From Hirudo medicinalis (lineage: Eukaryota; Annelida; Clitellata; Hirudinida; Hirudinidae): a stretch of 64,000 bases of DNA. Positions 1,358 to 40,304 of this stretch are shown here, piece by piece. Under the pieces are notes generated by a model that was not told the origin of the DNA, ran no database searches, and saw nothing but the letters and a program-made list of their open reading frames with translations. The number at the start of each line of letters is the position of its first letter. Position 1 is the stretch's first letter. The position numbers and the translations under genes were made by a program. The DNA lies in assembly GCA_011800805.1 (NCBI GenBank), contig MPNW01000027.1:14468-78467 (forward strand), given 5' to 3'.

Positions 1358-4300
1358 ATGACCGATATAGACGGAGTTTATCAGGTAATTTGTTTTGTTT
1401 TTAGTCTCCGTTATTTCTCTGAATCTACTGCTATTCTTAATAACAATTCTTCTTTATGGGGATATATAGGAGTACAAAATTATAAATTCCGTGTAAGAAA
1501 TATTTTTATCATAAAATCTTTCAGAAAAGAACGGAAGAATTGGAGGAAGAATTAAGAGCTGAAAGATCAGCAAGGAAATGGGTGAGAAATTTTGTCAAAC
1601 ATTTTACTTTTGAATTGTTTGATATTCAAAGAACGTCATTATCGTCATCAACTTGAATTGAGGACGACACGTGCACTTCTAAAATGTTAACTGTATTTAT
1701 TGAATGTTATTTGCACTGCGATTCTTAAACCCGAAGACTTTCTAAATATTTTTGAAAATCATCTACATAAAACTTAGAAGAACCCTTGATAATCGGTTAC
1801 TAACAGGCAGAAAAGCAAAAGGCAGAAATGCAACGAGAGTTGGAGATTTTGACAGAACATCTGGAAGAAACTGGTGGATTATCTCAGGCTCAGGCAGAAG
1901 CAAACAGGAAACGAGAAGTTGAACTTCAAAAACTTCAAAAGGAACTGGAAGAAGCGCATGCTCAGAACGAGTCTCAGTTGAATCTTTTCCGCAAAAAGCA
2001 GCAGGAAGCTTTGGCGGAGTGTGCCGAGCAAATAGATCTTCTGCAGAAAGCCAAACAAAAGTAATTATATCGATGGAAAGTGATATTATCTTTACATGTG
2101 TACTTGGAAATATTTAAATATTAAACATTGCTCGTTTGAAAATATATTAAGCTCTTTTCTAACATCTCGATAGTAACTTTGTTTCATGAATATTCATAAT
2201 CAGTGAATGATGATTCATAATCACAGGTCAGAAAAGGAAAAAGCTCTTCTGAAGAACGAAGTTTCAGAATTGTCTGCTCAACTGGAAGGATGCAACAAGC
2301 AACAGAAAGTCAGGATTTGCAGCTTGAATCAGAATTATTAAAATTTATTATTAAAGTCTTGGCGCATTTTTTTAAAGTCCAGGACATGTGATACACTTTG
2401 TAATTCGGCTTTATATATTTGATATCGAATTGTATGTTTTGATTTAACGTCACCTTTCATCTTCAGGCAGCAATCGATAAACTCACCCGCCAAGTCGACA
2501 CTCAAACGAGTGAATTTAACTCAAAAGTAAGTTTAAACTTTTGAATAAATCTCATTTATAAATAATTTTTATTTATTTATTTATTATAAGCATTTATAAA
2601 TAAATTTGATAGTAGCAAATAAACAACTTCAGATAAATGAACTGCAAAAAGAAGCAACAGACACAAGTCAACAGAAAAACAAACTTATGTCAACGAACTC
2701 TGAGCTCGTCAGAAGAAATGAAGAGTTGGAAAACCAGGTAGGAATCCAAAGAATGTCAACATTGTGACCTTCATGGTTTCATCGCAAACCTCGAATGTTC
2801 GACAGGTGAGTCAGCTGATAAGAACCAGACAGTCCTTGACGCAGCAAATCGAAGAAGCCAAGTTGGCAGCTGAAGACGAATCCCAACTCAGAAGCAAAGC
2901 GCAAGCAGAAGTCAGAGCCATTCAGGTTAGAACAAACTCCTGCTTTTTATGTCTCCATCTGACATTATATCAAGTCAAACAGTGTTGCCTATCAATTCAG
3001 TCATTACCATTTGAATTAAATATGTCCTAATAAAAAAATTTATTTGTTAAATAATGATTCTCTGGCCGACTATTCAACTTAACTAAACAATAACACAGTT
3101 AAACATTAACTTAATTAAAAGGCCACTATGGAGCAACTGAAAGAGAAAATTGAAGACGAACAAATCGGGAAGGCAGACCTTCAGAGGCAGTTGGTCAAAG
3201 CACAGAACGAAGTTTCAAGTCTCAAACAAAAACTTGAGCAGGCAGAAAGCAATGGAATTCAACCTGAAGAACTTGAAGACTTGAAGAGGAAGATGGGAGT
3301 GAAGATTCAAGACGGAGAGGCTCAGCTTGAGTCTGCCCTTTCCAAGCTGGTAGGATTGGATAAGTTAAAAACCAGACTGCAGATGGAGGTGGAAGCCCTG
3401 GCACTGGATTTGGAGAAGGTTATTTAGCTAAAAAAAAAGATATTTTATGATATAATATATTAATATTGCACAAAATTATTACAATTTCTAAACTAGTTTC
3501 AAAAATTCAGAAGTTTCATAAATCATTGATTTGAACAACTTTCAGTCCCAAGCTTTCAACATTCAAATGGAGAAAAAACTTCGTCAATGCGAGAAATCCA
3601 ACGATGAATGGAAGAAAAGAGTGTCAGAGATGCAGGCCGATCTGGACAAATTTCAGAAAGAAGACAAACAGCATGCTGCTGAGTACCAGAGGTTAAAATG
3701 GTTTAAAATGATATGTTACATTTCTGCCATGCTGTGGAATGGAACTTTGAGTCACCACAACTTTGAGACATTTCAGGCCTTCATGGAATAAGATGATTCT
3801 TTCAAGGTAATAAAGGTGATTAACTCTAGTTTAATTTCCTTTAGACTCAAATCAATTCTTGAAGAATCTCAAGACATGATGGAAAATTTGAAGAAGGAAA
3901 ACAAGAGACTCGTTGGTGAGTGACTTGTCCTCATCACCAACTTTAAATAAATAACTCCATGAAAACTTCCCTGAGCAGATGAAGTTCAAGACTTGACAGA
4001 TCAACTAGCAGAAAGTTTACGTCGGTTGGCAGAACAGGAAAAGTCAGTCAAGCGAAGCGAAACTGAAAGAGAAGAGCTGCTGGTCAAGTTGGAAGATTGT
4101 CATCTTTCGTTGCAGCAGGAAGTCAACAAATCACAGAGAGCACAAGCGGACATCGGCTCAGTAAAATCAGAAACGGATCGTAAATTAGCAGAGAAGGACG
4201 AAGAAATGGATACAATGAGGTCTCACTTGACACGATCCATAGCCTTATTGCAATATATTCTGTCTATATATTTATATAGTTCCTCATTTTCACATGGTGA

Positions 4301-6063
4301 CAGGAAAAATCACCAGAGAGCTTTGGATGAACTTCAAATGGGACTAGAGGCTGAATCCAGAGGCAGAGTTGAGGCGTTGCGATACAAAAAGAAGCTGGAA
4401 CAGGACATCGTTGAATTTGAAACTGCTCTGGAAGCAAGCAATAGAGCCAGATCAGAGGTGGAAAAAAACTTCAAGAGATTCCATCAACAAGTTAAAGAGC
4501 TTCAGCTGATGGTGGAAGAGGAACAACAGGTAAAAGTCATATAATTAATGATTCCATGTAATTGCCATCCATCATTTTTAACGTCACTATAAGGACAACT
4601 GCTGAGTAATTCAAAACCTAGTGAAGTGCTTATAACAAATGGGGGATATTGTAGGAGAGAAATTATTGCATAACCAAGCCAATCTCTAGGACACAAAACA
4701 ATTGACAAAATTTAAGAACAGAAATTTGGCTCATTCTTTGCACCCATTATTCTCTAACCGATCATGAGGTGCATCCGCTCAACAAGCAATACATAAAGCA
4801 AGTCGGAGTCCTGGTTTAAGCCGTAGCCTGGTGGTAATGATTTGCAGCTAACATTGCTCGATGTCGCAGAACACCCAGGAAGCACGAGCTGAACAAGCGG
4901 CCGCAGAGAGGAAGGCAGCGAGTTTAATGGTGGAAGTTGAAGACCTGAGGAGTCACTTGGAAGCTGCAGATAAGGAATTCAAGACCATCCAGGGTGAGTT
5001 GCAAGAAGCAATAGAAAGAGTTGCAGAGGCTTCGAACGCCAATGCCAGTCTGGCAGCTGCAAAGAGAAAAGCAGATGCAGAAGTCCAAGCTTTGAGCGTG
5101 AGTTTGCAAATATAATTCATTGTGCTTTGTGCAGCTAAATCACTTTTCTATTAGGCTGAGCTGACAGACAAGATAAATGAAGCAAAGAGTTTAGAAGATA
5201 AAGTGAAGAAGTCCGCAGGGGAAGCATCGAGATTGGCCGAAGAATTACGCCAGACACACGATCACGCCGAGCAAATGGAAAGATCCAGAAGGTCCGTGGA
5301 GAGTCACTTGAAGGAGATGCAAACAAGACTTGAGGAAACAGAAGCAGCTGCTATTCAAGGAGGTAATGCCTTGGAAGTATCGATCAATTTAACACCTAAA
5401 CTTCAAACAGATTTATTTATATACTCTTAATAAGTAATGCATTTACTGATAATTTAAAAAATAATCAAAACTGTTAGGTAAGAGGATAGCACAGAAAATG
5501 GAGCAGAGAGTCCATGAACTGGAATCAGATCTTGAAGCTGAGCAGCACAGACACAGTGAGACCGTGAAAGCCATGAGGAGACAGGAAAGACGGATGAAGG
5601 AGTTAGCAGTTCAGTTGGACGACGACAGACATAGTCAGGACAAGCTGCACGAGATTATTGAGAAGTTGCATGCCAAACTAAAAAGCTACAAGAGGCATGC
5701 TGAAGAAACAGTGAGTGTGATCACCTTCTTGGCAACAAGAGTGGTTGAACTAGTTGTAATTGTTGAGGTAATGCTTACAGCAAATGAACATTCTCCCACT
5801 CTTACTGGATTGATGTTAGATGTTTCATGAAGTTACAATTCTTGTTCTTGCAGGAAGAAGTTGCTGCATTAAATCTCAATAAATTTAAAAAACTTCAACA
5901 AGAGATGGAGGGAGCGATCGAGAGGGCGGACATGGCAGAAAACACTCTGGGCCTTCTCCGAGCCAGGAACAATAGCAGGTGTTCCTCCGTTGCCCCTGAT
6001 GGTGCCATGGCTCTGATGAGGGGGGCCAGGTCAGCAAGAGCTTCTTCAGAAGTCAACTATTGA
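1358..6063 (+). CDS. Headless myosin heavy-chain rod (tail-only protein)
   Basis: Sixteen exons join in phase to an 854-residue coiled coil: 1358-1384, 1525-1581, 1807-2060, 2227-2308, 2467-2526, 2633-2737, 2806-2925, 3122-3418, 3546-3691, 3845-3915, 3979-4219, 4304-4529, 4870-5097, 5155-5362, 5478-5710 and 5854-6063. From exon 2 onward the protein aligns end to end with the distal rod of muscle myosin II: EELEEELRAERSARKW, then RKLAEKDEEMDTMRKNHQRA, then AALNLNKFKKLQQEMEGAIE near the end. The last residues form a non-helical tailpiece ending ASSEVNY. No motor, IQ or S2-hinge sequence is present. Exon 1 supplies an ATG and nine residues, MTDIDGVYQ, unrelated to myosin. The expected product packs into or caps thick filaments but cannot bind ATP or actin. 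A possible ATTAAA poly(A) signal lies at 6212. The alternative, a full myosin whose head lies beyond the left edge, is made unlikely by the opposing gene at 1-603 and the lack of rod exons upstream. Confidence 0.8.
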
Positions 6064-6237: not shown

Positions 6238-7574
6238 TCAGTCATTTATTACCACCAAAACGACGTTATCTCCCCTGAGGAAGAGCTGAGGGATGTGTCG
6301 AATGAGGTACTTCTCATTTGAGGAGGTCTCTAGCTTATCGCTTCTGTTTTCAATTCTTTGCTTGTGGAAGGTATTTAAATCTTTCTGAGTCATATTTGGA
6401 AGGCAGCCACCATCCAGATTGGGATTCTTGTCCAGAATGGATTCTGTACATTCTGATTTGTTTTTATTCTTGGCTTGATTTCCTTCATTGATGTTGTAAA
6501 GTGGATTTATAAAGACTTCATCAACATCTACCATTGCCTGATTGAATGACAAAATTTTGTTCACATTTTGATTCTGATTTGTGAAAAAAATTATTTTAAA
6601 AAAAAAACTAACCAAATTCCAGTGCTTGTCAAATGCAACAATATAACCAGTGCATATTCCTCTAATGTGACAACTTCCTCTTGTCCAGACTTTGACCTTC
6701 AACTTCTGCTCAACACATCTGCTAAGGACACCCAGAGGACCCTTGGACTTACCATGGTCTGAATAGAAACATGAAAACATTGACCTAAGCTAAGAAAATA
6801 TTGAAATTACATGCTGCTGGTGTTAAATCTGCAGTTTCGAATATTACTTAAGACCAGAGTATACAACTAAAAAATAAAGATGCTTAAATACCTTGTGACC
6901 CTAAACATTAAATTGCATAAACCTAATACTTAAAACTAATTGTTTACTTAGTACTCAAACTAATGTTAAGTTAGTTAATATAAATTCTATAGTTAAAGAA
7001 TAAAGTTAATAGAAAAGGAATCTCTTTGAAGTAAGCCACAAGTAGTTTTGTGACTCACAGCAAACTACATAACACCACAATTAATGTTGTCAGTGCTTAC
7101 TTGGTTTAGTTTGTTTAATTAGTTGGAATATTAAATAAAATATTAAAAAAGCCCTAAGTCTGCGCTACTTTCCAGCATTACTTCTAAATAAGCCACCGTG
7201 AACAGAGTTTAAAATCTTATATCCAATTTTTCAGTTCAATTTATTCCTGCTACTATATATAGCAAACCGGGATTATTCAGCCCCTAACTTCAGCTAAGTA
7301 TACCTTAAAATCTAAACAGCTATTGCGGCCCTTCAAACTCTGATTACTTTATAAAACAAAATAATTCGTGACTTCAATGATCATTTCGTGCAACCTTCCA
7401 TCCTTTTGAAGACATTTCTACTGCTTGTTAAACGTTTTTTTGTCGGAATTAAATCCACTTTCCTCACTTCGAAGAGACCACTTTCATTTTTAGTGTCCAT
7501 CTTTGACAAAAATCCAGCCACAGATAAGCTGATCAACCCGCTTGAAAGAGCAACATCGATGCTAAAATACATAT
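6238..7574 (-). CDS. LSM11: U7 snRNP Sm-like protein LSm11 (5' end uncertain)
   Basis: LSm11 replaces an Sm protein in the U7 snRNP ring and is needed for 3'-end processing of replication-dependent histone mRNAs. Three exons fit in phase: about 7574-7395, 6758-6613 and 6537-6238. The first ends with SSRNVFKRME, matching the short conserved segment just before the Sm fold of LSm11. The second carries Sm1 (GPLGVLSRCVEQKLKVKVWT, then RGICTGYIVAFDKHWNL). The third begins AMVDVDEV, completing the Sm1 loop, then has a polar spacer of about 60 residues and Sm2 (RHIPQLFLRGDNVVLVV). A spacer between Sm1 and Sm2 is characteristic of LSm11. The true start is unclear: the first exon may open at an acceptor near 7575 or contain the start (ATGs at 7581 and about 7500). 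Exon 2 has a damaged partner at 8505-8723. Confidence 0.8.
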
Positions 7575-9603: not shown

Positions 9604-12600
9604 TCAGTATTCCTTAGCTAACCGAGCCTTCTTTGGCTTATCCTTGTGAGTGAGTGGAGGAGTTCTGCTAACGATTTCATGGCAGTTTCCAACCATCCTT
9701 GAGAAGGTGTCAGCCTCCAATACTTAAAGAGAATACACGATGATAACATGAGACTCGACCATTGCACTTACAATTAATTGATGCTGAGTTTCAGGGCTAA
9801 AAGGCGCTAACGAAAGATTGCATTTGAATACTTTGAAATAAAAGCAGATTCAATGACACAAATTATCGATGAGAAACCCACCCAAAACGTAAACATCTCC
9901 GACGGCAGTTACTGTGGAGGACCTGACGATCTCAGACAACAAAGCCAGTTCTATTGAATAAAATAGCAAGTTTAGTAATAGTCACCGACTTCATGTAGAT
10001 ATTTTGAGCAAACCTCCAAAATAGGCTCCTGATTCAATGAAGTCTTCCTTGCCCTTTGGATAGGTCTAATAAAAAAACACGTTATTCGCAACTGCTTAGC
10101 ATCCTCGTGATAAAATTATTAAAGCTGCTCAATCAACCGGGAATTAAGTATTTGTTTCTAACGTGAGACGATTAATTCAAAGCTCACCTCTGTGACAGTT
10201 GTCAGCAAAGCTCTACCATTTTCGATGATCATCAACGAGTCGGCTTTTTCTCCCTTAAACAATTTTTACTTACATGACTATTTAGTATACTAAATAATAT
10301 TTTATAGGAAATCGTCACGAGTAGATAAGAAAGAATCATAATATGTAGTAGAATTCATAATTTTCGAGATACAAAATTTTAGTTGATACTAAAGTTGATA
10401 CCCTCAGTACGAGTTTCCCCTACATTTCCCCTACGTTTACATCATATTCGCAATGATTCGTATAAGGTCTTATGTTCAACTATACAAATATTTACTTTAA
10501 ATTTGAGATGAAAAGCCAGTAATAAAAGAGGATAAATGTCAAGCACAAACATAGTTAAAAAGTATTCGTCACTTACTTGCTTAACAATTATTTCCTCGTT
10601 ATCAAAATGAACCAATCTCAAGGCATCTGCTGTCTTTTCAAATTCAGTATCCTAGAGAATACAATGATAATATGGGGATTACATATAATGCTCGACCTAA
10701 CATGATGTTTAAAGACTTAATGAAGAAAATATTGAATTGATAACCAGCTAATAGAAACTTTAATCAATCGTTGTCTAAAACAGTAATAAATTAATCAATA
10801 GACATTTATAAAAATACCGTCATGTTCTTGAAAATGTTGACTTTCTTCAACAACTCCACGTTGTTCCTCCTCGCTTGATGCTCGGATTTCGTAAGAATTT
10901 GTTTAAAATTCGACCGTTTCTGTGAAATGAAATCAAGCAGTTACATTCCGTCGCCTCGTAGTTACATTGAGTATGCTTGTAAATGGTAAACGTTTACTTA
11001 CCACGTACCACAACAAGCCATCAGTGGCAGCCTTCACGGTGTTCCTTCGTTGGACATTGTACATGAGCGCCATTTCTCCGAAATATCCAGAATCATCATG
11101 TGTTCCAACTTTCATGCCATTTGCAACCACCTCAAATTGTCCTCTGCAAGGAACTCGAGTTAAAGATATCTGATAGTAAAATAACAATATCGAAACGTAC
11201 TTCTTCACTATGTAGAACTCGTCACCCATATCTCCCTGGGTGTAAATGCTTTCATTGGCTGCCACCTGCAATGCAATATGATTAATTGAAATGCATTTAT
11301 GATTAGAATTCAAACTCTTCCTTGAGCTTCCGTCTCGAAACTTCAGAATGATTTTCCCCATCTCCGAAGGATCAGACCTTCTCGTCGAGGAACTTCATGT
11401 CTCCTGTTAACTCTTAATTTTCTGCTGGGGTTAATTACTAGAGGCGTAGCTAGAGGTTTCGCCCTCTTTACATCATTATTAACTTGGCGCTCGGGAAGAC
11501 GCCCCTTAGCTATGCCAATGTTTATTGCTTGTCATGTCACAAAATGAACTATGCACACCAGTATACAATACTCAGTGTTGACTCACGAAAAAGTAACACG
11601 ATTTAATAACATTCCCGTCATTAACATTTGTCAATGTTATCAACGAAACTTCCAAAACTAACTCACATGTCGCTCTAATAGACCATCAGCAATGGCAAAC
11701 AAGTGAGCCTATACAAATAATTGTCCGAATGCAATACTTAATAGGATAAGCAAAGAAATAAATGAAAAATACAAACTCTAGGCATGTGCTTGAGGAAGAA
11801 GATGTTCTTAATCTGGTTCACCACAAATTCTCTCTCAATTTCCGTCTTTTTCACTATGTCCTGACAACGATAAGAATGATCAGACTTTATGAGGTTAGAA
11901 ATCACAATAAATTTACATTCTCACCAAGAAAGAGTTCAGTTCGATGTCTTGAGGGTCATAACTCTCCGCTAAGACTGTTTTTTACGCAAATATTTAAATA
12001 TTTAAATATTAAAGTGATATGCTTTGTAGTTTATTACTCACTGGGCCTAAATTTATGTATATATATATATATATATAAATGTAGTCGAAGTACAATACAA
12101 CTCAAATTTAAAAAATGCATTGAAAGGCAGATTAGAAAACACGTTCTGTTGCGATTCAAAAGTTTTCTAACTTTAAAAATATTTTTGTAGTTTATACTAA
12201 CCACAATTGAAACACCAAATGACAACATAAATATTAATATTAAAATAACGTAACATAATGTAATGTGATGTGATGTAATGTAATGTTGCATAACTTAACA
12301 CAACGTAATACAATACTATACAAGCAAACCATGATTTCAGCAACGGGGAACAACAAACCTGCTCTTCTGAGGGCTTTCTTGTTTTCCTCTAAAAATGAAT
12401 CACAGTAGTCACCCCTACAGCAATTATCGTATATTACATCCTCTCGCTTAACCATCTTTCTATCGATCTTTAAACTATTATTCAAACCCTGCAATCTATG
12501 TTTTTATTGTTTTACTTCAACGATTTTTCTTGTTGTTTATGACGTCAACAAAAACTCTAATTAAGGTGTAGAGATTGTTTAAGCTAAACTGCTAAAGATG

Positions 12601-14316
12601 TCTAATATAACTGTTCGGATGATAGGCAGTACATATAATCATAATTTGATAGGTTTAATGTAACTATTAAAGCACTGTCAAATGGAACTGTACAATTGAA
12701 TATCTTTTGAACATGCAACATGACAACACGATTGAGAACTTACTTTCAGTGGCATCTTCCTCCCAATCTTTAGAGTTGATCATCATGAAGATGTCATGTC
12801 GGAATTTGACAACAATTCTTAAAATATCATCGAGAACTTTTCTCGCAAGAACCTCCTTGGTGACAGAGACTGCTATCTTTTCCACAATATTTTGCATGAA
12901 TACTACTTCAATATCTGAGGAGTTTAAAAAAACATGATTTAAATGTAAGAAATACTTTTTCTGTTACATATCGCAATTAAAGTCTGAGTGAGGCCAACCT
13001 CACCTGAATTAGGATCGGCCAAGTTATCAGAGTTATGCCATAAACTAAGATCAAAGAATAAGAAGCGATGTTTGCTATTGTTTTATTGGATAACATTCCA
13101 ATTATATTTCAAACCTTTTTCCTTGTCGTCGTAGAAATAATTTCCAGCCACCAAATCTCCGAACGTTGCTGAAATCAATCCTCCAACGTATCCCTCAGAA
13201 AAAGAAACGGCAGCGATTTTCTTCTCTAGGAGTTTTGAATGCTTCAATCTGCTAATTTCCTGTCTCAGTCTTTCCATCTGAATAGTACAATTTAGATGGA
13301 TTTTTGTCGATTTCAGTTTTTAGAACTGCGACCAACTTTTTCCTGTTTTATCCTTCTTTCTTGCTCTTCCAACCTTTGCTGCTCTTCAAACTCTGCATTC
13401 CTCAATTCCTCAAATATTCTCTGCTGTTCTCGCAGAGCTGCCAATTCTTCCTCTTCCTGTACTTCCAACAAGGCCTGTTCTACCAACTTACCCACGAGAA
13501 CCTCAAGCACCGGTTGGACTTCGACATCAAAATCGAAAAGCTACAACATTGGTTACAATATTAAGCGATATCGACATTTAGTTTGTTGTACGACATAACT
13601 TAAATAAAACAAATACTCACATCTCCGTCATAAATTTGCGTTTGTTTGTCCAATCCTATTTTCTCTGGAATAAAATAAGGAGTTGGTGGTCGTCCGATGA
13701 AGAGATCAGTTTGTGTGAAATTGTTTCTCTCATCTCGAAACTCTTTCAACTCTTCCAAGTACATCTCCGTCTGGATCTAAATAGGAAGTCGAACACATTA
13801 TTAATTTTAATGGATGGAATTTCTTGATCAATTTGAATACTTTTTGATGCAGACGACCATCAAGTGCAGGAGGGGTGAAGTTGGATCGATCATCGATGGG
13901 TGGAAGCTTTCTTTGGAGCAGACGTCGATTCTTGAGCTTTTCAAGTGCTCTTTTTTCTGCTTCTCTCAGCCTGTGGGTTTCGCACGTGGGGTCATAATAT
14001 CTTATTGGGGGGAGTGGCTGAGTGAGTTGAACAATCAACGAATTACAAGTTCAAGGATTGTTTAAGTTGGGTTTCTTACCTCAAACTTCAGAACAGCTTG
14101 AGGTCGGCAATTAAAATTGTTGTGAAGCGGCACAATTGGCTCTAAATTACAACTCCTGTGTACATATTTGGGCAAGGGTTACTTTATTAACGATAAAATT
14201 ATGTAATACCTAACTAATTCTTACTTTTTCTGTTTTACAACCTTTCGTTCGATGACATTAGGCTTTTTTGGTTTTAAAAAAATATGTCCAGGTTCAGAAC
14301 TAGACTTGCAATCCAT
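9604..14316 (-). CDS. Radial spoke protein 3 (AKAP) fused to PKA regulatory subunit domains
   Basis: Twenty exons form one phase-consistent chain of 648 codons. The RSPH3 part is 14316-14225, 14155-14080, 14017-13841, 13776-13621, 13540-13337, 13277-13115 and 12914-12744. It contains MYLEELKEF, FIGRPPTPYFIPEKIG and the helix LEVLVGKLVEQALLEVQEEE, then AGNYFYDD and a possible PKA-anchoring helix, VLARKVLDDILRIVVKF. The regulatory part is 12388-12359, 11974-11925, 11860-11777, 11708-11667, 11265-11201, 11143-11002, 10919-10818, 10651-10577, 10253-10188, 10065-10014, 9950-9882, 9783-9772 and 9722-9604. It opens with the inhibitor segment KKALRRAVLAESYDP and has two CNB domains (YFGEMALMYN and YFGELALLSE). 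No dimerisation/docking domain is seen. RSPH3 anchors PKA in ciliary radial spokes, so a covalent fusion would be meaningful. The alternative is two genes: RSPH3 could end through an 11-base exon (12488-12478, stop TAA), and a regulatory gene could start at ATG 12457. Both families are certain; the fusion is inference. Confidence 0.7.
11441..11517. mobile_element. Short MITE-like element with imperfect terminal inverted repeats
   Basis: The left end reads GGCGTAGCTAGAGG and the right end CCTTAGCTATGCC, whose complement GGCATAGCTAAGG matches the left end with few differences. The body is under 80 bases and noncoding. It sits in an intron of the PKA-regulatory part of the fusion gene. A loosely similar GGGGGGTGCC...GCTATGCCTCTGATC stretch occurs near 61300-61350. 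The family is unknown. Confidence 0.35.
12057..12077. repeat. (TA)n microsatellite
   Basis: About ten TA units lie in an intron of the fusion gene. A degenerate run of TGTAATG-like units follows at about 12250-12290. Confidence 0.8.
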
Positions 14317-18857: not shown

Positions 18858-20897
18858 TCAGTACCTTGCCACATCGCCGGCAAAAAATGCCTGAGTTTGC
18901 TGCTGATTGAGTCGTTCTGCAGCTTCTCTTGCCTTCCTTGCCTCCGATCGAGTGACCATGGTGGTTTTCGGAAAGTTCCTCGATTGGGCTTGCCTGTGAG
19001 GGCGTCCGGAGTGAGTGCCGGGCACGTCGTTGGCTCCCCCCGCACCGAGTCGTTGAGTGCGGATGGGACCTCCGCCGTTTTTGTTGTCGTCTGCAGCTTG
19101 CACGTTCCTCGAATTACGTACCGACGGGAGTGGATCTTCTATCCGGTTGACGGTGTTCCTGGCCGTGGTTTGGTTGCCTCCTCGGTTGCCTCTGTTTCTA
19201 GTGGCCGTCGTGGATTTCATTCTGTTGGTCACTACCGGTATGCGAGCTGAAGATATATTAAACGGGCTGTAAAATGCAAAATCAATTGCGAGCCGCTCGT
19301 ACGAACGGAGCAGATCCGAGGACTCACATAGAGATCGACGAGAAGTGCCCTGCTTGTTGTTGGCACCTGCCGGGTCTTCGGGCTTTTCCGTAACCATGAC
19401 AACATCGGGAGTGTACGGATCGATTTCATTTGGAACGGCCTCGTCGGCGGGAGGGGTGGGTTGACCAACATTTTTACTCAGCATAAGAGAATCTATTGAC
19501 TTTTGGCTCTGAAATTTTATTTGGGTTTTTAAATATATCAGTAAAATTGTTACAAGGATAAACATACCTTATAAATATTCCAATCAAAAACATAGTCATA
19601 AGTGTAAGACTGTCTGTAGAAAAGATTCCTAAACAGGTGTCGTAACTGGGAGTAGTCGGGTTTGTCGTCAAACTTGAGTGACCTGCAGATGGTCAAATAT
19701 GTGACAAACTCAGACGGGAAGTTTCTACATAATTCTTCTATCGGTGTCGACATTTTCTTCTCGCTGATCCTTTCATATTTTTGGTGTTTTGTGGCAGCTT
19801 TGAGGTTCTGCCATGGCAAACTGCCCCTCAGAAAGTACATGAAGATGTATCCTAGGGACTCCATGTCATCTCGTCGACTTTGTTCTGAATTAAAATAATC
19901 ATTAGCTTACTTTGATGAAATGAAAAATGTAATAAGTAAATGATTGTACAAACAGTAACATTTTTACCTCGACCCAAATGAGTGTTGATGCTTGCATATC
20001 TTGCTGTACCTGTGAGGTTCTTGTCCTCCCTGTAGGCTATGTGCTGGTGCGTGCGAGCATCTCGGTACTTTTTGGCAAGCCCAAAATCTATGGCGTAAAG
20101 AAGGCTTCCTTTTTTACCAACGCCCATAAGAAAGTTATCCGGCTTAACATCTCTGTGGATGTAGTTTTTAAGATGTACGTATTCTATGCGACTGATCTGT
20201 GAGGATGAAAGCAACCGATTATAAAGGGGTCAATGATTACTGTTCAATAGTTGAGATTAAATATAATAAACATGATTTTCTGACATCCAACAGACCATTT
20301 GATCTGCAAGAAGAAGAACAGTTTTCAGACTAAATTTCCTGGAACAGAAATTGAACAAGTCTTCCAAACTAGGACCTAGAAGTTCCAACACCATTACATT
20401 GTAGTCTCCTTCAGAACCAAAATACTTCAACACAGGGATACCAACTGAAAAGCAATATTTCTTTTAAAATGCTTAGAAAAGTACAACTACAAAAAATGTC
20501 AGATTACTTTATTTATTTATAAAAAATAAATCCTGATAAATATCAAGTGATGCTTATTTTATTTAATTGTTTAATTGTAAATCAAAACCTAATCTTGTTA
20601 TGATTTACATCTAATAACTTAATGGTGATTACTTCCTCCTTGAAGAGCTTTATATATTTTATTTTCAGCATGTAATGTCAGGTGTTTAGACTTTATGGAC
20701 TCTAGTTTAACAGCCACATCTTCAGATGTAGTTAAGTCTGTACCTGCAGTGATTATAGAAAACGTTTAGTGCATAATCCTTAAGAACAAAGCATCTCACT
20801 TTCATTGTAAATTACATTTACCCAGGTATATGTCTCCAAAGGATCCACTGCCAATCTTTTTTCCCAATCTGTATCTTTTATTAATTCTTAAGTCCAT
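18858..20897 (-). CDS. CSNK1D: Casein kinase 1 delta/epsilon
   Basis: Six exons (20897-20822, 20743-20633, 20444-20296, 20196-19968, 19884-19568 and 19508-18858) join in phase to 510 residues. This Ser/Thr kinase acts in circadian PERIOD phosphorylation, Wnt/Hedgehog signalling and ribosome maturation. The start [20 protein letters not shown] leads into the glycine loop. DVAVKLES holds the ATP-binding lysine, [14 protein letters not shown] the catalytic loop and [18 protein letters not shown] the activation segment. [13 protein letters not shown] and [15 protein letters not shown] follow. The choice of delta/epsilon over alpha rests on [12 protein letters not shown] and on [20 protein letters not shown]. 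The tail is about 210 residues, longer than in the human protein, with an FNISSARI patch matching the delta/epsilon tail and an Arg/Gly/Asn-rich end. Delta and epsilon are vertebrate paralogues, so the symbol stands for the invertebrate co-orthologue. A donor-like GTGAGT near 19320 would break the frame if used, so the last exon is read as continuous. Confidence 0.92.
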
Positions 20898-31600: not shown

Positions 31601-34030
31601 AAATATAATAATAAAAATAATAATTATAATATAACAACAAATATAATAATAAGAATAATAATTACAATATAACAACAAATATAATAATAAAAATAATAAT
31701 TATAATATAACAACAAATATAATAATAAAAATAATAATTGTAATATAACAACAAATATAATAATAAAAATAATAATTATAATATAACAACAAGAATATGA
31801 TGCTTAGGTGACAGCAGCCTTTGAAGCGTTCACTTTCAACAGAGTGAGGAGTGCTCCTATCTGGGATGCCACAAAGAAACAACTGACAGGTTGTTTGTGA
31901 CATTTTAAACACTTAATTGGGGATGACATTTTGTTAATCTTAATGTAATTCAATTAATTATTGAGGATAACTTCTTATTCATTTATTTCACCAATTCATT
32001 GGAACGTGACTGTTAACATGTTTATGTTGAAAAGTTCGGATTATTATTCGGATGACTCAATTCTGTGTTGATTCAGAGGTTCATTTGTTCTTGCATCACG
32101 ATATAAATAATAATAATTATTATTATAATAATAATAAAAAATAATAATAACATCAAAATTAATTAGTGATGATGATGATGATGATGATGACAGTGACTTT
32201 CTTCCACAGGAATATTGACAATCTCCGATTTCATAGATGTCCTGCTGATTTGTGCTCAACAACCGGTAACCTTTGATATTTAAAATTAATATTTTAACCA
32301 ATTACGACATATGAAATACTAACGTGATTTTACTGTTGTTTGAATTATTTCTCATTTTATCCGTTGCATCCCATCTAAATTATTCTCTGCTTTTGTAGGA
32401 ATTATTTGAGAAGATCACAGAACAGAATATATCTGACTGGAAATGTAGGCATCATTGGCATCCTTAAGATGACACGATTCACATTAATTGAATCATTTAA
32501 AACCTTCATCAAATTCTTCAATCTTTCTTCTGCAGCTCTAAGCAATAAAGCCAAATTTGAGGCTAATGGGAGCTTGGATAACAGTGCCATCTGTGATTCA
32601 ACGGAACAAACTACCACTTCTTCCTCCAGTGAAAGCAATGGAGAATCAACAGACTTTGGAGATTCAAACACATACAACGTCGTTCCTTCCAGGGAAGTTA
32701 GGGAAGAATCAAAGTTTGAAGAGAGCAAGAGAAAAGCAACTCTGGAACTCAAGATCTCAGAGCTGGATAAATCATCTGCTGACTTATTCTCTACTGCTGC
32801 TTCAGATGACCACAAAACAGACAAGACTGACTCCAAGGAAATTTCGTCGGTTGACACCTCACCAGATGTCAGCCCTCAATCCAGCGTGAACAAGCGCCCA
32901 TTCCCAATGATCAGATCCTCTTCGCTGGAGCACGATAACGGCAGCATCAGTTTCGACACAGGACTCATAAGTGTCGAATCTGATGACACACTCTACGATG
33001 CTATTTCCGTGCTCAAGACGTTCGGCTTCCACAGGGTTCTTGTCATGGATTACTCTGACAACGATCCACTCTACATTCTGACCTACAAAAGGATTCTCTA
33101 CTTCATCTACGTTATGGTCAGTTGTCGAGGCACAATGGGCATTTATTATGTTGGGCTTTTCTTTGAATATCTTGAATATTGCTCTTGCAGATGGACACTG
33201 TCAACATTCCTCCATTCATGAACAGCTCCATTAAAGTTTTGAACGTTGGCACATTCACCAACTTAGTGACAGTGAGTTTACTTTCTTAGTATTCATCTCA
33301 CTAGTACAGTAATTGGATGATTGTTTGAAGATCACGTACGACACGACACTCAAGGAAGCTTTGTCACTTCTCCAATGGAGGTCCGTGTCTGCCATCCCTG
33401 TTCTCGACGCTGATGGAAAAGTGGTTGATTTGTACACCAAGGAAGATGTCATGGTTGGTCAATTTAGAATGACTGTCACTGAAGATCACATTTGACTTTC
33501 AACGTTTAGAATTTAAAAATCATATTTGTCGTTTTACTTTTAGAATTTAGTGTACAACAACAAGTTCACACAACTGAACAGCACCATCGAAGAAATTCTT
33601 CATGACAAGAGGCGGGTACGAATCGAACAATGTCTGACAATAAAATGCAGTTGTTTGAACTTTTTGTAAGCTAAATTCAGTAAACATTTAATTGCAGATA
33701 TTCGAGGGACTGTTCAAGTGCAAAGAAAGTGATTCTCTGATGGCTGTGGTGCAATATTTCATCAGTTCAAAGGTTTATTTCTTGATTTTTAATTCCCAGC
33801 ATTGGATTACATTGAATAAAACTCAACATAATTGAACAAAAACATTAAGCTGATAAAAGCTTCTTCGTCATTGAACTAAAGTGATTAATTATTATTTTCA
33901 GGCACATCGCCTCGTTGTCACCGGTGATGACAACAAACTTCAAGGAATAATTTCTCTTTCTGACGTCGTCAATTTCATGGTTTTGGGATGCCAACCGAAT
34001 GATGAAGGATTGCAACTGACCAGTGAATAA
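28607..34030 (+). CDS. PRKAG: AMP-activated protein kinase gamma subunit, extended form (5' end missing)
   Basis: AMPK gamma senses AMP, ADP and ATP through four CBS motifs and controls the kinase heterotrimer. Exons: 28607-29806, 29980 to about 30564, about 30876-30964, 31035-31068, 31211-31314, 31808-31889, 32210-32265, 32399-32444, 32536-33116, 33191-33271, 33331-33453, 33544-33615, 33698-33772 and 33902-34030. About 1085 residues are visible. The first 600 are an unshared, Ser-rich N-terminal extension with basic patches and RRPSVTLQDFLEMYKEK; long extensions are known in vertebrate gamma2 and gamma3. The CBS core begins at YKCYNVMPTSGKLVLFD. The nucleotide-contact phrases VRSAPIWD, FHRVLVMD, VSAIPVLD and AHRLVVTGDD are all present, as is SLSD near the end. 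Odd point: about 135 acidic, Ser-rich residues (32536-32943) are inserted between CBS1 and CBS2. The junction of the second and third exons is uncertain because the obvious donor and acceptor phases differ. The first coding exon was not found. Confidence 0.85.
31430..31793. repeat. AT-rich tandem repeat, unit about 37-38 bases
   Basis: Nine or so copies of a unit containing ATAATATAACAACAAATATA lie within an AMPK gamma intron. Copies differ mainly at one A/G site (ATAATAAG or ATAATAAA) and at TTATAA/TTGTAA/TTACAA. It is a noncoding minisatellite. Confidence 0.9.
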
Positions 34031-34419: not shown

Positions 34420-37400
34420 TCAAACGTTCAAAGTGAGACTGCAGTTGTTAACATTTTGACTGACGTAAACTTTTATTGGAACAATCCACTCCACACCTGA
34501 GGCTCTGTTTGTTATGGAGACCTGCACAAGAATTTGAATTTATAAATGCTTAAGCGAGGAACGTTTAAGTGCCGAAATACATTCACAGTGCAATAATTAT
34601 TACATTACATTAATAATACATTTATAATCAATACATACTATTCAACTGTCGTTATTTGATAACGAAGTAAAAGTAACGCAGCTTCAGTACTTCGACTTTT
34701 TACTTTTAAAGTAACTTTAAAATATCTTTTAATTTTACTTGAGTACATTTTAAAAAATATCTCTACTTTTACTTGAGTAAATTTTTTGAGGTATTGTTTG
34801 TACTTTTACTTAAGTGTTGGAGCGCAGTACTTTTCATAGCACTGCTATTATTCTAAACAATCCTCACGGAGTAAGAGCACCAAAACTGTGAGTGTAGTCA
34901 CCTTATTTGGTCTCCAAGCAGCATTCACTCCAGTGTTGTCGTGTTTCAGACTGGAAAAATTGGAAGGATGAAATGGTGAACGAAATTAATAAAATTAATG
35001 AATTAATGAATACAAGTATAAATGACTTGGACGTAATAGCATAACTGATGTACAACAGCGTCAATGACAAAATATGAATTTCATCACTTGATGGCAGTGA
35101 GGTTGCAAGGATCACCCAGGGTGAGTTGCTGGGTGTTGAAAAAGAACCTGTCCACTTGACCATTTTCGAAGAGATTGTATGAGTCGTTGGTGAGGGGAAA
35201 TACTTCTTGTATGGGTGGATGGTGAGGAAAGAGAGCGAAGTACAAGGTGAGGTTCACTTGGGCGTCCGTGGATGCCCCAGATATGGAACCAGTTTCTACT
35301 GCTATTTCAAGCGGCACGGGGTCTTCATTAAAATAACTTTCATTTATTTCAGTGCAGACCCCGTTTGTTTAATAAGTTTTTTATTTGAACTAATGATAAT
35401 GATGATGATGATGACGACGACGACGACGATGATGATGATGATAACGATAGTGATAATGATAATAATAATTATAGTGGTAATTATAATAATAATAATAATA
35501 ATAATAACAACAATTACATTAAAATAATAATAATTTGAAACGACTCTCTCGTGCATCTTCCGATCTGATTGATAGTTGTCCACAGCAACAATGATGCTGT
35601 CTGAATGTTAACTTTCCATTTATTTTATTTTATCTCGATTATATTTCAATATTGCTTTTATATTGTCGAATATATTTCAAAATTGTTTTAATTTAAATTT
35701 AGATCATTTATATAGCGCCATATACACAGCGACAGAGTCTTCTTATTAACCATTTATATAGCGCTCCTTCCAAAGGGAACTTGAGGCAGTGCAGGCTGGG
35801 TTTCGAACACGACACCTTACGACTGCTGGCATTACCGCCGTAATGTATGCAGGAATGTAATCGACTCGTTCAACCTGCACGACGTTGCCATGTTGTCGAA
35901 TAAATTTTAATGTAGTTATAATATTTTGTCGAATACATTTTAATGTAGTTACAATATTTTGTCGAATATATTTTTAAAAAGATTTAAGGCGTCCTTAATA
36001 ATATCATCGTTACGTACGTATGTGTCAGTAACACTTTCGTTAAAATACGAAATAAGAATTTAAAGACTAATTAATATTTTTATATTTATATTTGTGTTTT
36101 TTTTATTTAAACAATAACTGGCATTTTAAAGTAATCGTGATATTCATTTTCATAATGTTAGAACATTGAATAATGAATTATTGTATTGAAAGCTCCAGTC
36201 GCCGTCGTCATCATCATCATCATCATCATCACCGTCATCGTCATCATCAACAACATCGTCGTCGTCGTCGTCATCGTCGTTGTCATCATCATCATCATCA
36301 TCATCGTAGTCGTCGTCGTCATCATTATCACCACTGCCTGTTATCATCGCCATCGTCTGTCATCACAACTGGCTGTTGAGTTTGGAAATTTGNTAATAAG
36401 TTTTTTATTTGAACATAATGATAATGATGATGATGATGACGACGACGACGACGATGATGATGATGATAACGATAGTGATAATGATAATAATAATTATAGT
36501 GGTAATTATAATAATAATAATAATAATAATAAATATATTAATTCAGAATTGGCCTTTATTTATTTCTTTCGAAACTTATTCGAGATGTTCACTGAAGATT
36601 TATCAAATTAACCAAATCGTTACCGGCGTCGGCGTGATCTCATCGCGTGTGTTGTGTTCTCGGTTTATTCGTTATTTTGAAACTCTTGGATCACTGAGTG
36701 ATTTGAACTAATAACTGTTTCTGGACACTTTCAGTTACTGTTTTTATAAAGTTTTAAAAAGTTCTTTAAAAACAACTTGTCATCGCTTGCCCACATTTAA
36801 AGGATATCATCCGGTACTCCCGAGAAGAGCTCTTTTCATTTCTCCCCCCAAAGGATGATGTTAAGGTTGCCAGAGAGGTGAGAAAATGTTATTCACTCAC
36901 AAAATCTCGAACCCACACCAAGTTCGGTCCAGTGTGTACAATGAGTTCAATGGCAACAAAGACCAGGCCATTAGGCGCCAAGCCTAACTGTGAAACTTGG
37001 CCTATAAATGCGCGCTCAGCCTTAGACAAGGCCGCACTTATTCAGGACAGCCTATCCGACGGAGCTCTGGATATCTTTGTCTTGACCGAGACTCGGATAA
37101 CTTCCGACGCTCCTAGCTGCATCACAAACAGCCTCGCTCCAGACGGCTTCATCACCACCCACCAACATCGCGGCTCCTCCACCGACAAGCGCGGGGGCGG
37201 CATTGCAGTCATCCATCGCCATGATATAAAATCATCTAAAATAGTTCATGACTTCTCTGGATTTGGTAGATTCCCCAATTCCATACTAAAAAATACTCCC
37301 CTATCCTATCCCCATCCTCTCCAAACTCGCCAACCTTTCTTTCAGCACTGGTGTCTTTCCCTCCACCTTCAAGAGCGCTGGAGTCCTCCCCTTATTTAAA

Positions 37401-40304
37401 AAAAAACCAAGCCTCGGCCCCTAGCTCCCCTGCCAATTACAGACCTATCTCCAACCTTTCCATCATGTCGAAACTGCTAGAGAGACTCATTTTTCCCAGG
37501 ATTTGTCCTCATATTACTAACTCCCAAATTTCTCAACCTTGCAATCTGCCTATAGACCTGGTTTCTCAAATCTTCAACAATCTTTCCAACATATGTGGAA
37601 ATCGTAACTGTGCCGTCATGGTCGGCCTCGACCTCTCAGCGCCTTTGACACTATTAATCACCAAATATTGTTGGATAGACTCCACTCTGATTTTGGCATT
37701 GACAGTCTTGCCCTCTATTGGCTTCACTCCTACCTTTCTAACAGATCTCAGTACGTTAAGCTTGGCGATCACACTTCCATCTCTGCTGCAATTCTTGCTT
37801 GGGTTCCCCAGGGCTCTGTCCTAGGACCCCTGCTTTCCACGACCTACATCTCACTCCTGTCCGACATCGTTATGAACTTCGACGTGTCTTTTCACCAATA
37901 CGCGGACGACACGAGCCTTTACTCTGTCCTCTCCAACCACAGTGTCTCCGAACAACTTCACAATCTGCACAGTAAATGCACAGATGCCATGGACGACTGG
38001 CATCTCGTCAATTTTCTTCAACTCAACCTGCAGAAATCCGAAGTTATGTTTATCGGCACACCCACACACCTCAAGAATCTATCTCCCCATCTTCAATAAA
38101 CATCGCTGGTACTACTCTTCCTTCTTCTTCTACTACCCTAAAACTCCTCGGCGTCACCTTTCACTCCCACCTCAGCTTTAAACAGCACGCCACCTATATA
38201 ATTAAATCATGTAACCACCTCATCTGGGCTATCCGACATATCTGTCCGTTCCTCTCTGTCGACACAACTTCTGCTCTTGCAGTCTGGTCCTCTCTCGTCT
38301 GGACTACTGCAACTCCCATTTCTACTTCTGCCTCACTTATCCACTCCCTAAATAATCTAGCCAAGCTCGCTCTTCTCAATCCTAGCCTTAACAACTCTGA
38401 ATGCCTGAAGCAACTGCACTGGTTGCCGATAGACCTTCGCATCATCTTCAAAATCTCATTAATCACCTATCGCACTCTAGCCACATCCAACCCTCTCTAT
38501 CTCAACCATCTCATTCACCGTTGCCAAATCCCCGACCACCTTCGTTCATCCTCCGCAATTCATCTACATACCCTTTTGACCGGATGGCCAAGTATATAAA
38601 TTTTTAGACTAGTCGTGGGCCGGATTAACAATTTCACAACAAAAAAAAACAATAAAACACAAAATACCTCTTTATGATACATTTAAGCTAGAAGAGAAAG
38701 TCTTATAAGTTTATGCTTATGATCAGTTTAATGTGAAATCTGGCACTGCTTTTGTTTGCACAAGTAGTCTATGTCTGCTCCAACAGTAGAAGTCGCAATG
38801 CGCAATGATGTTGCAAAATGTTGGTCTGTAAGCAGAGATCTTAACTTCGATTTCATGTTTTTCATTCTAGAAAACAGTTGTTCGTACAGTAGGTGCTTCC
38901 GAAAAGAGCAGTGAACTTCCTGGCGTCCTGTGAGAGATTGGTATACTTATCTGATGGTAGAGGCTGTAAAAGTTCAGCAGATCATGCTCAGCTGTCATTC
39001 TAAATATGTCAATGAGTTCCAGCTGGTATTTATCAGCAGCATCCGTCGGATCGATTGAAAACGGATTACTGATTAGCTTCATGGTGCCAATGTGCCTTCT
39101 GAAATCCTGGAACCTTTTCTCGAAATCATCAGCAAGTTTAGTAACCAAGTCAGAGTACTTCTCATTTTGGACTGTATCAGTAGGCCTCGACGAAAGGACT
39201 GGGCAATGTACAGCCTTCTTCAGAACCAGCTGTGACTGAATTAGCTTCAACTTCTGAATGAACGTCACAACGAGTTCATACAACTTGTGCACCATTTTTT
39301 TTTGTTATTTAAATATAAAAATGTTTACAAAATCAGAGAAGCTTCGCGGGCCGTGTGTTGGACACCCCTGATCTAGACCAACCAGTCCATAGATCATTCA
39401 TCATCAATCGAAGTTTCACCTATGCCTCGCCTGCCGTCTGGAACGACCTTCCCCCATCCTTCGGTCTCAACCTACACTTGAACTCTTCAAGCGTCAGTTG
39501 AAGACCCATTTATTCAGGATGACATTAAACCAGGAATCAAGGCGCCTCTGACGCTATGCTTACGGCGCCATATAAATGTATTATTATTATTATTTATTAG
39601 CTTAATAAGAATATGAATATGAATATGAATAGCTATATTTGAAGACTGAAATGATTGATAACAGATTATTTAATGTTAATTTTTCATGAAACAACTTGTT
39701 TACACGAGCGATATTGCTATATTTAACAATAATAATAATCATTTTATCCATAAAATAAATGTAATAATATTATTATCAAAGTCAATAACTCAAGTTTTTT
39801 GTAGTCGTAGGTACTGTTGATGTTGTCGTCGGTAGTGTTGTTGGATCTACCCATGTGCAATCCTGTGACGGAAGTAATTATAAATAAACTATTATTTATT
39901 ATTAAATTATTAATACTATCATTATTAAATTATTAACACTATTTTTATTGAATTATTAATTAACCACAACAAGCACTCACCAAGTGACGTTCACTTGTTA
40001 CGTTGGTAAGATGAAATCCTCTCTGATATAAACTTATGCTCTTCAAGAGAATACATTGATACAGCGACTGATTGTTCGTTGTCCGAGGGTTGTTTGAGAT
40101 GGCGACAGAATCGAACCCAAAACAATCAGTTCCATCAGAACTGCATCTCACTGCGCAAGATATTGTTCTCCTGGGTACGATTTCCCCAGACTTTCTACAA
40201 AATGACCTTGAGGTTACTTGACCTTCAATGCTGGAAAAATGGAGCGATGGATTGGAAACAAAGCAGTAGCAGAATAGAGAAACTAAGTTGAAACTCTTCA
40301 TCAT
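34420..40304 (-). CDS. Secreted PAN/apple-PLAT domain protein
   Basis: Five exons (40304-39981, 39862-39790, 35322-35088, 34950-34902 and 34521-34420) join in phase to 260 residues. The N-terminus MMKSFNLVSLFCYCFV is a signal peptide. Residues about 35-85 are PAN/apple-like: FCRKSGEIV, SCAVRCSSDGTDCFGFD and YQCILL give the cysteine pattern. A Thr/Pro linker follows (TTLPTTTSTVPTTTK). Residues about 135-250 form a PLAT/LH2 beta-sandwich: VETGSISGASTDAQVNLTLY, YNLFENGQVDRFFFN and LKHDNTGVNAAW, the last being the HDNTG...W signature. PLAT domains bind lipids or protein partners, often with calcium; PAN domains bind proteins or sugars. No enzyme domain or membrane anchor is present. The second intron is 4.5 kb and holds most of the mobile elements of the region. 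The domain order is certain in outline; the exon 2-3 junction rests on phase. Confidence 0.7.
34640..34850. repeat. Degenerate ACTTTTACTTGAGTA-rich repeat
   Basis: Phrases related to ACTTTTACTTGAGTA recur several times, in both orders, for example TACTTTTAAAGTAAC, TTTTACTTGAGTACA and TACTTTTACTTAAGT. Self-similar elements of this kind are common as nonautonomous repeats in animal genomes. No terminal repeats or target duplication were identified. Confidence 0.45.
35369..35525. repeat. GAT/GAC array, first of two near-identical copies
   Basis: The block begins AATAAGTTTTTTATTTGAAC and runs through GATGAC triplets to a TAATAATAA tail. It recurs almost base for base at 36396-36531 in the same intron. 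Confidence 0.85.
35700..35900. repeat. SINE-like dispersed repeat, copy 1
   Basis: The block contains ATTTATATAGCGCTCC, GGCTGGGTTTCGAACACGAC and ATGTATGCAGGAATG, ending near TCAACCTGCACGAC. The same phrases in the same order occur at 59545-59705 inside PSME4. GGGTTTCGAACAC resembles the B box of a tRNA promoter, which suggests a tRNA-derived SINE. Confidence 0.5.
36396..36531. repeat. GAT/GAC array, second near-identical copy
   Basis: This matches 35369-35510 over more than 120 bases, including the irregular AACGATAGTGATAATG core. It begins three bases after an ambiguous base at 36393. A preceding CAT/CGT array at 36205-36330 is a separate simple repeat. Confidence 0.85.
36600..39590 (+). 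mobile_element. Non-LTR retrotransposon (LINE), decayed, L2/CR1-like
   Basis: Broken frames on the plus strand follow the LINE order. At 36950-37260 is the endonuclease (DIFVLTETRI and KRGGGIAVIHRHDI). At 37430-38100 is the reverse transcriptase (ANYRPISNLSIMSKLLER, then WVPQGSVLGPLLSTTY and the catalytic YADDTSLYSVLS). At 38100-38600 is the C-terminal part (LKQLHWLPIDLR). After an inserted hAT element, 39372-39560 resumes with TYASPAVWNDLPP and the 3' end, GGCGCCATATAAATG followed by an ATT run. A deletion joins the endonuclease to the RT near 37290, and frameshifts are present, so it cannot move. It lies inside an intron of the PAN-PLAT gene, opposite to that gene's strand. Confidence 0.85.
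38605..39371 (-). mobile_element. hAT transposon fragment inserted in the LINE
   Basis: The right end, read on the minus strand, is CAGGGGTGTCCAACACACGG followed by CCCGCGAAGC, a typical hAT terminal sequence. A minus-strand open frame of 142 codons (39295-38867) resembles the C-terminal half of hAT-derived proteins such as GTF2IRD2/ZBED types: DDFEKRFQDFRRHIGTMKLI, NPFSIDPTDAADKYQLELID and ISHRTPGSSLLFSEAPTVRT. The left side ends with CGTGGGCCGGATT, which echoes the inner terminal repeat but lacks the outer bases. The N-terminal half of the transposase is missing. LINE sequence continues on both sides. Confidence 0.75.

Follow-up and report, generated by a model that had tools for sequence, protein, structure and literature searches.

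Within a 64-kb window (the whole stretch of leech DNA analysed here, 64,000 nucleotides), spliced models place on the minus strand a seven-exon RSPH3 paralogue (14316-12744) followed downstream by a PKA-regulatory-subunit-like (R-like) gene, raising the question of whether the two are read as one protein or as two (Table 1). The first-pass annotation had described RSPH3 exons followed closely by PKA-R exons on the same strand and had joined them in frame. Profile searches confirm the gene order (PF06098, E=1.6e-75; PF00027, E=2.3e-35), and the spacing is indeed short: the stretch that begins at donor 12743 and ends just before the acceptor exon at 12388 measures 355 bases. An open in-frame route also exists and one fused protein is possible, but two adjacent genes fit the sequence at least as well, and we consider two neighbouring, separately translated minus-strand genes to be the best reading and probably the correct one. 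Searches for tRNA and Rfam families returned no matches within the window.

Table 1. Features of the RSPH3 paralogue, the intervening sequence and the R-like gene (window coordinates).
Feature	Position	Strand	Basis
RSPH3 paralogue exon 1, ATG at 14316	14225..14316	-	spliced model
RSPH3 exon 2	14080..14155	-	spliced model
RSPH3 exon 3; PF06098 match starts here, residue 107	13841..14017	-	spliced model and profile
RSPH3 exon 4, inside PF06098 match	13621..13776	-	spliced model and profile
RSPH3 exon 5, holds PVLEVLVGKLVEQALLEV	13337..13540	-	PF06098 match; alignment to Chlamydomonas RSP3
RSPH3 exon 6	13115..13277	-	spliced model
RSPH3 exon 7, end ...DWEEDATE, phase 1; donor AAA/GTAAGT at 12743, 9.3 bits	12744..12914	-	
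Intergene interval: candidate RSPH3 terminal exons and AATAAA at 12508	12456..12743	-	
R-like exon 1, two-gene reading: ATG 12455, MVKREDVIYDNCCRGDYCDSFLEENKKALRRA	12359..12455	-	
R-like exon 1, fusion reading: 30 bases alone	12388-12359	-	
R-like exon 2, VLAESYDPQD, completes inhibitor site	11925..11974	-	spliced model and alignment
R-like exon 3	11777..11860	-	spliced model
R-like exon 4; best PF00027 stretch (residues 90-171) starts at exon end	11667..11708	-	
R-like exon 5, cNMP-binding domain A	11201..11265	-	spliced model and profile
R-like exon 6, phosphate-binding cassette A, FGEMALMYNVQRRNTV	11002..11143	-	
R-like exon 7	10818..10919	-	spliced model
R-like exon 8, DTEFEKTADALRLVHFDNEEIIVKQ	10577..10651	-	spliced model and alignment
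R-like exon 9	10188..10253	-	spliced model
R-like exon 10, start of cassette B	10014..10065	-	spliced model and alignment
R-like exon 11, most of phosphate-binding cassette B, FGELALLSEIVRSSTV	9882..9950	-	spliced model and alignment
R-like exon 12 and stop	9604..9722	-	spliced model

Pfam profile searches revealed that each half, taken alone, matches its own family across nearly the whole domain, and the family membership of both genes is well supported by homology. In the first gene, the match to Radial_spoke_3 (PF06098) spans profile positions 2-224 of 229 (253.9 bits), and PVLEVLVGKLVEQALLEV aligns with PILEVLVGKVLEQGLMEV of Chlamydomonas RSP3; this stretch, which we take to be the amphipathic AKAP helix, is common to the leech paralogue, Chlamydomonas RSP3 and the radial spoke head protein 3 homolog (8j07). 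The leech protein differs from its relatives in two respects: firstly, it is a divergent second copy, with 46-54% identity among the 12 best matches; secondly, its tail is very short, with 22 residues after the RIVV motif before any terminal exon, as compared to 36-180 (median 83) in 120 relatives, drawn from proteins of at least ~354 aa. Another RSPH3 gene lies on contig C150, which holds none of the 23 cNMP-binding matches. The joined chain had been described as 20 exons divisible by three; it is open, but comprises 19 exons (7+12), a model we prefer to the 20-exon chain because FYDDKEK-DIEVVF, the product of joining 13115 directly to 12914, can be aligned with other RSPH3 proteins. An extra exon at 13043-13004 was inspected by eye and dropped.

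The second gene resembles the PKA regulatory subunits RI and RII in a number of ways: it contains two PF00027 (cNMP-binding) stretches; both phosphate-binding cassettes carry their Glu and Arg (E136/R145 and E259/R268), invariant across seven aligned sequences; its inhibitor site (L29-R30-R31-A32-V33) is of the alanine type and fits the RRxA/S-hydrophobic pattern in part, at P-2 (Arg), P0 (Ala) and P+1 (Val); and its best solved-structure match is the type II-alpha regulatory subunit (E=1.1e-44). It departs from them in having Leu at P-3, usually Arg, and in the residues that follow the cassette arginines, which are Arg in cassette A (Ala in four of six aligned relatives) and Ser in cassette B (Ala in five of six). 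This Ser is reminiscent of the Thr of PKG, and the cNMP domains are similar to those of the regulatory region of cGMP-dependent protein kinase, although the leech gene stops at 9604 and has no kinase domain. A further difference from RI and RII is that the R-like protein has no recognisable docking/dimerisation domain. As had been claimed, the RIIa domain (PF02197) is absent from the R-like model, and a whole-genome search placed none of its five PF02197 matches on the contig that carries this gene (C27), which speaks against a docking domain hidden upstream. R-like proteins with no docking domain listed among their precomputed domains occur elsewhere (for example P0004 of Fasciolopsis and P0007); they too have a short N-terminus before the inhibitor site and PF00027 alone, but differ from the leech protein in their leaders, and some may be incomplete predictions.

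Can the two genes be joined? The first-pass annotation correctly found that donor 12743 and acceptor 12388 are compatible in phase, and joining them yields an open chain of 644 aa (74.7 kDa) with plausible splice sites. If this is a true gene fusion, one mRNA spliced from 12744 to 12388 would encode an RSPH3 scaffold with a C-terminal, cyclic-nucleotide-gated PKA inhibitor, and the kinase would be held on the spoke covalently rather than via a docking domain. Besides the fitting phase, this reading draws support from its 9.3-bit donor and from the acceptor, which at 5.7 bits scores highest of the 30 AGs scored between the genes (by a small splice model of 17 introns), as well as from the lack of a docking-domain match on the contig, the short RSPH3 tail and the very short gap between the genes. 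By contrast, chance alone would place an in-phase acceptor-like site within R exon 1 in ~8% of cases at a score of at least 5.7 bits and in 22% at 3 bits or more, so that the in-frame join only weakly exceeds chance. The fusion also requires a 30-base internal exon, where all other internal exons have at least 42 bases.

A separate start for the R-like gene is available. The annotation had placed this start at 12457, whereas the in-frame ATG begins at 12455; its context is good (A at position -3, G at +4). Among simulated introns, 17.7% contained an in-frame ATG in an open frame, and 1.2% one that also combined G at +4 with a purine at -3. Start context is not a strict rule here, since no purine occupies -3 at the RSPH3 start (14316). 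Nor does a separate RSPH3 gene depend on an 11-base terminal exon at 12488, as had been asserted: candidate terminal exons begin at 12687, 12610, 12591, 12588, 12556 and 12488, read-through would also end the protein, and the acceptors at 12588, 12591, 12687, 12556 and 12488 score 3.3-5.1 bits and end RSPH3 within 1-28 residues. Between the genes, an AATAAA at 12508 is followed by 11 bases, a CAG and a downstream GGTTTG; the AATAAA may be a chance occurrence in AT-rich DNA.

Codon usage is less favourable to separate genes. The codon model was small (2,100 codons in a first run and fewer in a second, the two differing a little). The longer RSPH3 ends look non-coding (scores of -14.25 from 12687 and -6.95 from 12610), as does the read-through (a score reached or undercut by only 4.6% of coding windows), and two genes therefore imply a very short RSPH3 end. 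The codon signal of the stand-alone R leader is likewise poor: scores this low occur in 8-10% of coding windows, and scores this high in 22-28% of non-coding open windows, while among windows of the two genes themselves, which were in the training set, 2 of 55 score as low. Its GC content (0.373, as compared to 0.316 in introns and 0.41-0.44 in exons) does not discriminate. These poorly coding alternatives count in favour of the fusion.

Comparison with other proteins and with the rest of the genome does not. The 644-aa query had 831 matches, and the 120 listed include no fused RSPH3-R homologue, all of them carrying PF06098 alone; this search scored 8000 candidates among proteins of ~354-1127 aa. 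The protein searches turned up no near relative for either gene, the best identities being 38% for the R-like protein (among proteins of ~176-560 aa) and 54% for RSPH3 (among the matches listed). The titles and abstract openings searched named no RSPH3-R fusion. A search for a second copy of the junction found that its 381-base stretch matches only itself, and matches to the R-like protein elsewhere do not exceed 46% identity. The RSPH3 query gave four pattern matches and no relatives in viral_contigs, and with the R query genome_contigs returned 20 relatives, all of them in records titled as bacteria; both results are uninformative. Also against the fusion, the RSPH3 side retains its AKAP helix sequence, and a docking-domain-bearing R-like exon (C287) and other docking-domain sequences are present elsewhere in the genome. 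On balance, we consider a true fusion unlikely.

Two further readings keep the genes distinct and connect their transcripts. In the first, separate products would be accompanied by a minor read-through or dicistronic mRNA that is sometimes joined in frame, with the 30-base exon skippable. The short gap and shared strand agree with this, as does the fact that splicing RSPH3 to the R-like gene stays in frame with or without exon 12388-12359. Against it, a study of Dimorphilus reports operons and trans-splicing to be absent, "similar to other annelids" (PMC7854359), although read-through needs neither; such conjoined transcription strikes us as rather improbable. The same report also counts, in a leech, against an operon resolved by spliced-leader trans-splicing, in which RSPH3 would end at the AATAAA and the AG before 12488 would accept a spliced leader for the R-like gene. 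The AATAAA, 11-base spacing, CAG and GGTTTG would suit this arrangement, which we nevertheless regard as very improbable.

Two neighbouring, separately translated genes are thus favoured because each half matches its own family and ATG 12455 lies in good context; because chance alone would supply an in-phase acceptor in 8-22% of cases and five other acceptors end RSPH3; because AATAAA, CAG and GGTTTG lie between the genes; because the fusion needs a 30-base exon and has no fused relative among the matches listed; and because the RSPH3 gene on C150 has no cNMP-binding match on its contig. This reading is weakened by the top score of acceptor 12388, by the poor codon signal of the R leader, by an RSPH3 end that is very short beside those of 120 relatives, and by a stop-to-start gap of less than 290 bases in a phylum reported to lack operons (PMC7854359). 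Under the two-gene reading, the first gene would be a second, divergent RSPH3 paralogue whose AKAP-helix sequence is kept, as the alignment shows, and which most likely serves as a scaffold in the spoke stalk, binding proteins with docking domains. The R-like protein, predicted to start at ATG 12455, would act as a monomer that inhibits a PKA-type catalytic subunit until released by cyclic nucleotides, neither dimerising nor docking classically on anchoring proteins, and the in-frame route would arise incidentally, from a strong donor in RSPH3 and an acceptor in R exon 1 that acts as a decoy.

Whether RSPH3 anchors PKA at all, as the annotation had assumed, is disputed. According to PMC8339350, PKA never turned up in the spoke in proteomic screens, and RSP3 is now recognised as an anchor of RSP7-RSP11; on the other side, a 2025 study describes altered PKA subunit levels in Tetrahymena mutants of RSP3B and RSP3C (PMC12399478). 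If a natural RSPH3-R fusion were true, it would provide direct evidence for cyclic-nucleotide control at the spoke: a leech lineage would have joined a duplicated RSPH3 to a docking-less R, so that covalent attachment replaced anchoring and a kinase inhibitor gated by cyclic nucleotides became a fixed part of some radial spokes. If there are two genes, the duplicated RSPH3 and its neighbour, an R-like subunit without a recognisable docking domain, still form a compact setting in which a possible paralogue-specific regulator can be tested.

The window occupies C27:14468-78467 (contig MPNW01000027.1) of a 133 Mb genome in 1,557 contigs; for three published leech assemblies, PMC10087013 gives 157.5-203.7 Mb and 18,106-20,430 genes. 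Homology identifies two consecutive minus-strand genes, RSPH3 and a PKA-regulatory-subunit-like gene (R), whose exon borders were placed by eye at GT/AG sites and then compared with relatives. The best solved relative of RSPH3 is Chlamydomonas radial spoke protein 3 (E=3e-62), and the R protein matches the type II-alpha regulatory subunit, a solved structure, at E=1.1e-44. As the first-pass annotation had stated in proposing an RSPH3-R fusion, R lacks its docking domain (PF02197).

Coordinates of the two genes, candidate RSPH3 terminal acceptors and docking-domain sequences elsewhere in the genome
Feature	Position	Strand	Details
RSPH3 gene	14316 to 12744	minus	seven exons; PF06098, E=1.6e-75, profile 2-224 of 229
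R-like gene	12455 (or 12388) to 9604	minus	twelve exons, 320 aa; two PF00027 stretches
Alternative RSPH3 terminal acceptors	12588, 12591, 12687, 12556, 12488	minus	splice model: 5.1, 4.0, 3.5, 3.3 and 3.3 bits, respectively
RII-like exon, docking domain and inhibitor site	contig C287		type assigned by eye
Further RII-type docking-domain sequence	contig C202		type assigned by eye
Another docking-domain sequence	contig C57		type assigned by eye

Splicing 12744 to 12388 yields an open chain of 644 residues plus stop (74.7 kDa), so the phase-compatible junction described earlier is real as a reading frame; divisibility of the chain by three has a one-in-three probability by chance. In a splice model trained on 17 introns of the two genes with the candidate junction excluded, donor 12743 scored 9.3 bits and acceptor 12388 scored 5.7 bits, the highest among 30 AGs scored between the genes (genuine acceptors, leave-one-out: -3.8 to 6.9 bits). 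By phase, eleven acceptors could lead into the R frame; four of these keep it open, the three besides 12388 scoring -0.4 bits or less. The join is a fair splice prediction. If the genes are separate, chance alone would place an in-phase acceptor within 80 bases of R exon 1 in 8% of cases at 5.7 bits or more and in 22% at 3 bits or more, both upper estimates because the underlying plus-strand rate (3.1 acceptor-like sites per kb at 5.7 bits or more) counts real plus-strand acceptors too.

Two separate genes had been held to need an 11-base terminal RSPH3 exon; this does not follow, as other acceptors suffice and read-through past the donor also reaches a stop. The longer among these ends nevertheless look non-coding: terminal exons from 12687 and 12610 have coding scores of -14.25 and -6.95 (the latter acceptor weak, 0.3 bits), and the read-through scores at a level to which just 4.6% of coding windows fall. 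Therefore, separate genes imply a very short RSPH3 end. After the RIVV motif the window copy has 22 residues before any terminal exon, as compared to 36-180 (median 83) in 120 relatives, a sample of proteins of about 354 aa or more; this favours some continuation, perhaps into R. A second RSPH3 gene (C150:281907-282846, L033) has a longer acidic stretch past the domain and a longer tail than the window copy, and none of the genome's 23 cNMP-binding matches lies on its contig. By eye, the intron before its EIE motif sits at the same place as that before DIE in the window copy.

Under the fusion, ATG 12455 and the leader between it and 12388 would be intronic. Of 20,000 introns simulated at a length of 355 bases, 17.7% carried an in-frame ATG within an open frame ahead of the acceptor, 6.4% a frame open for at least 38 codons, and 1.2% such an ATG with G at +4 as well as a purine at -3. 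The leader's codon signal is weak and leans toward non-coding: equally low scores occur in 8-10% of coding windows and equally high ones in 22-28% of non-coding open windows, while 2/55 windows of RSPH3 and R, themselves part of the training set, score as low. The GC content of the leader, 0.373, is uninformative on this point.

Of 8000 candidate proteins scored against the joined protein, 831 were matches. A fused relative, if present, should rank near the top; none appeared in the best 120 of the 831, all 120 carrying PF06098 alone. Because neither gene has a near copy among its matches (best identity among those listed 54% for window RSPH3 and 66% for the second RSPH3; 38% across 39 proteins for R), the database is silent on near kin. 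The premise that RSPH3 anchors PKA through the R docking domain is disputed: according to PMC8339350, the spoke was formerly thought to hold PKA since RII binds RSP3 in overlay assays, but no proteomic screen ever found PKA in it, and RSP3 is now recognised as the anchor of RSP7-RSP11. In Tetrahymena, PMC12399478 reports altered levels of PKA subunits in RSP3B and RSP3C mutants, so RSP3 paralogues may be linked to PKA. For Dimorphilus, PMC7854359 reports operons and trans-splicing as absent, 'similar to other annelids'.

Weighing these items by judgement rather than as a computed posterior, we consider two products the probable main state. Fusion of RSPH3 and R into one protein is unlikely, and a minor joint RSPH3-R transcript is, if anything, slightly more so.

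Several further ORFs were recognised by eye in the window: myosin heavy-chain tail-like (2722-5830, plus), U7 snRNP protein LSM11-like (6238-6789, minus), AMPK gamma subunit-like (32379-33221, plus) and reverse-transcriptase-like in several frames, resembling a decayed retroelement (36770-38599, plus). Casein kinase 1-like ORFs (19550-20229, minus) lie about 5-6 kb upstream of RSPH3 on the same strand; PMC12399478 describes a CK1-type enzyme near spoke RS3. Elsewhere, a COX1-like stretch on C456 (112 kb; L041:4137-5186) best matches Hirudo (85%), ahead of Haemopis (80%) and of Whitmania and Hirudinaria (both 79%); its reading of TGA as Trp and internally repeated segment make it probably a nuclear mitochondrial copy or misassembly. 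Judged from this one contig, the genome is probably that of a leech. The COX1 match at C459:20763-22199 (L038), nearly the whole profile in a stop-free frame of 639 codons, looks bacterial and is possibly from a symbiont or contaminant.

In a gap-free alignment, the R inhibitor site is of the alanine type with Leu at P-3 (L29-R30-R31-A32-V33). E136/R145 in one phosphate-binding cassette and E259/R268 in the other are invariant. The residues following the cassette arginines (11143-9882, minus) are Arg and Ser, where 4/6 and 5/6 aligned relatives have Ala. Ser at this position may permit cGMP, which we offer as no more than a lead; the replacement of the usual Ala may alter the cAMP/cGMP preference of this protein.
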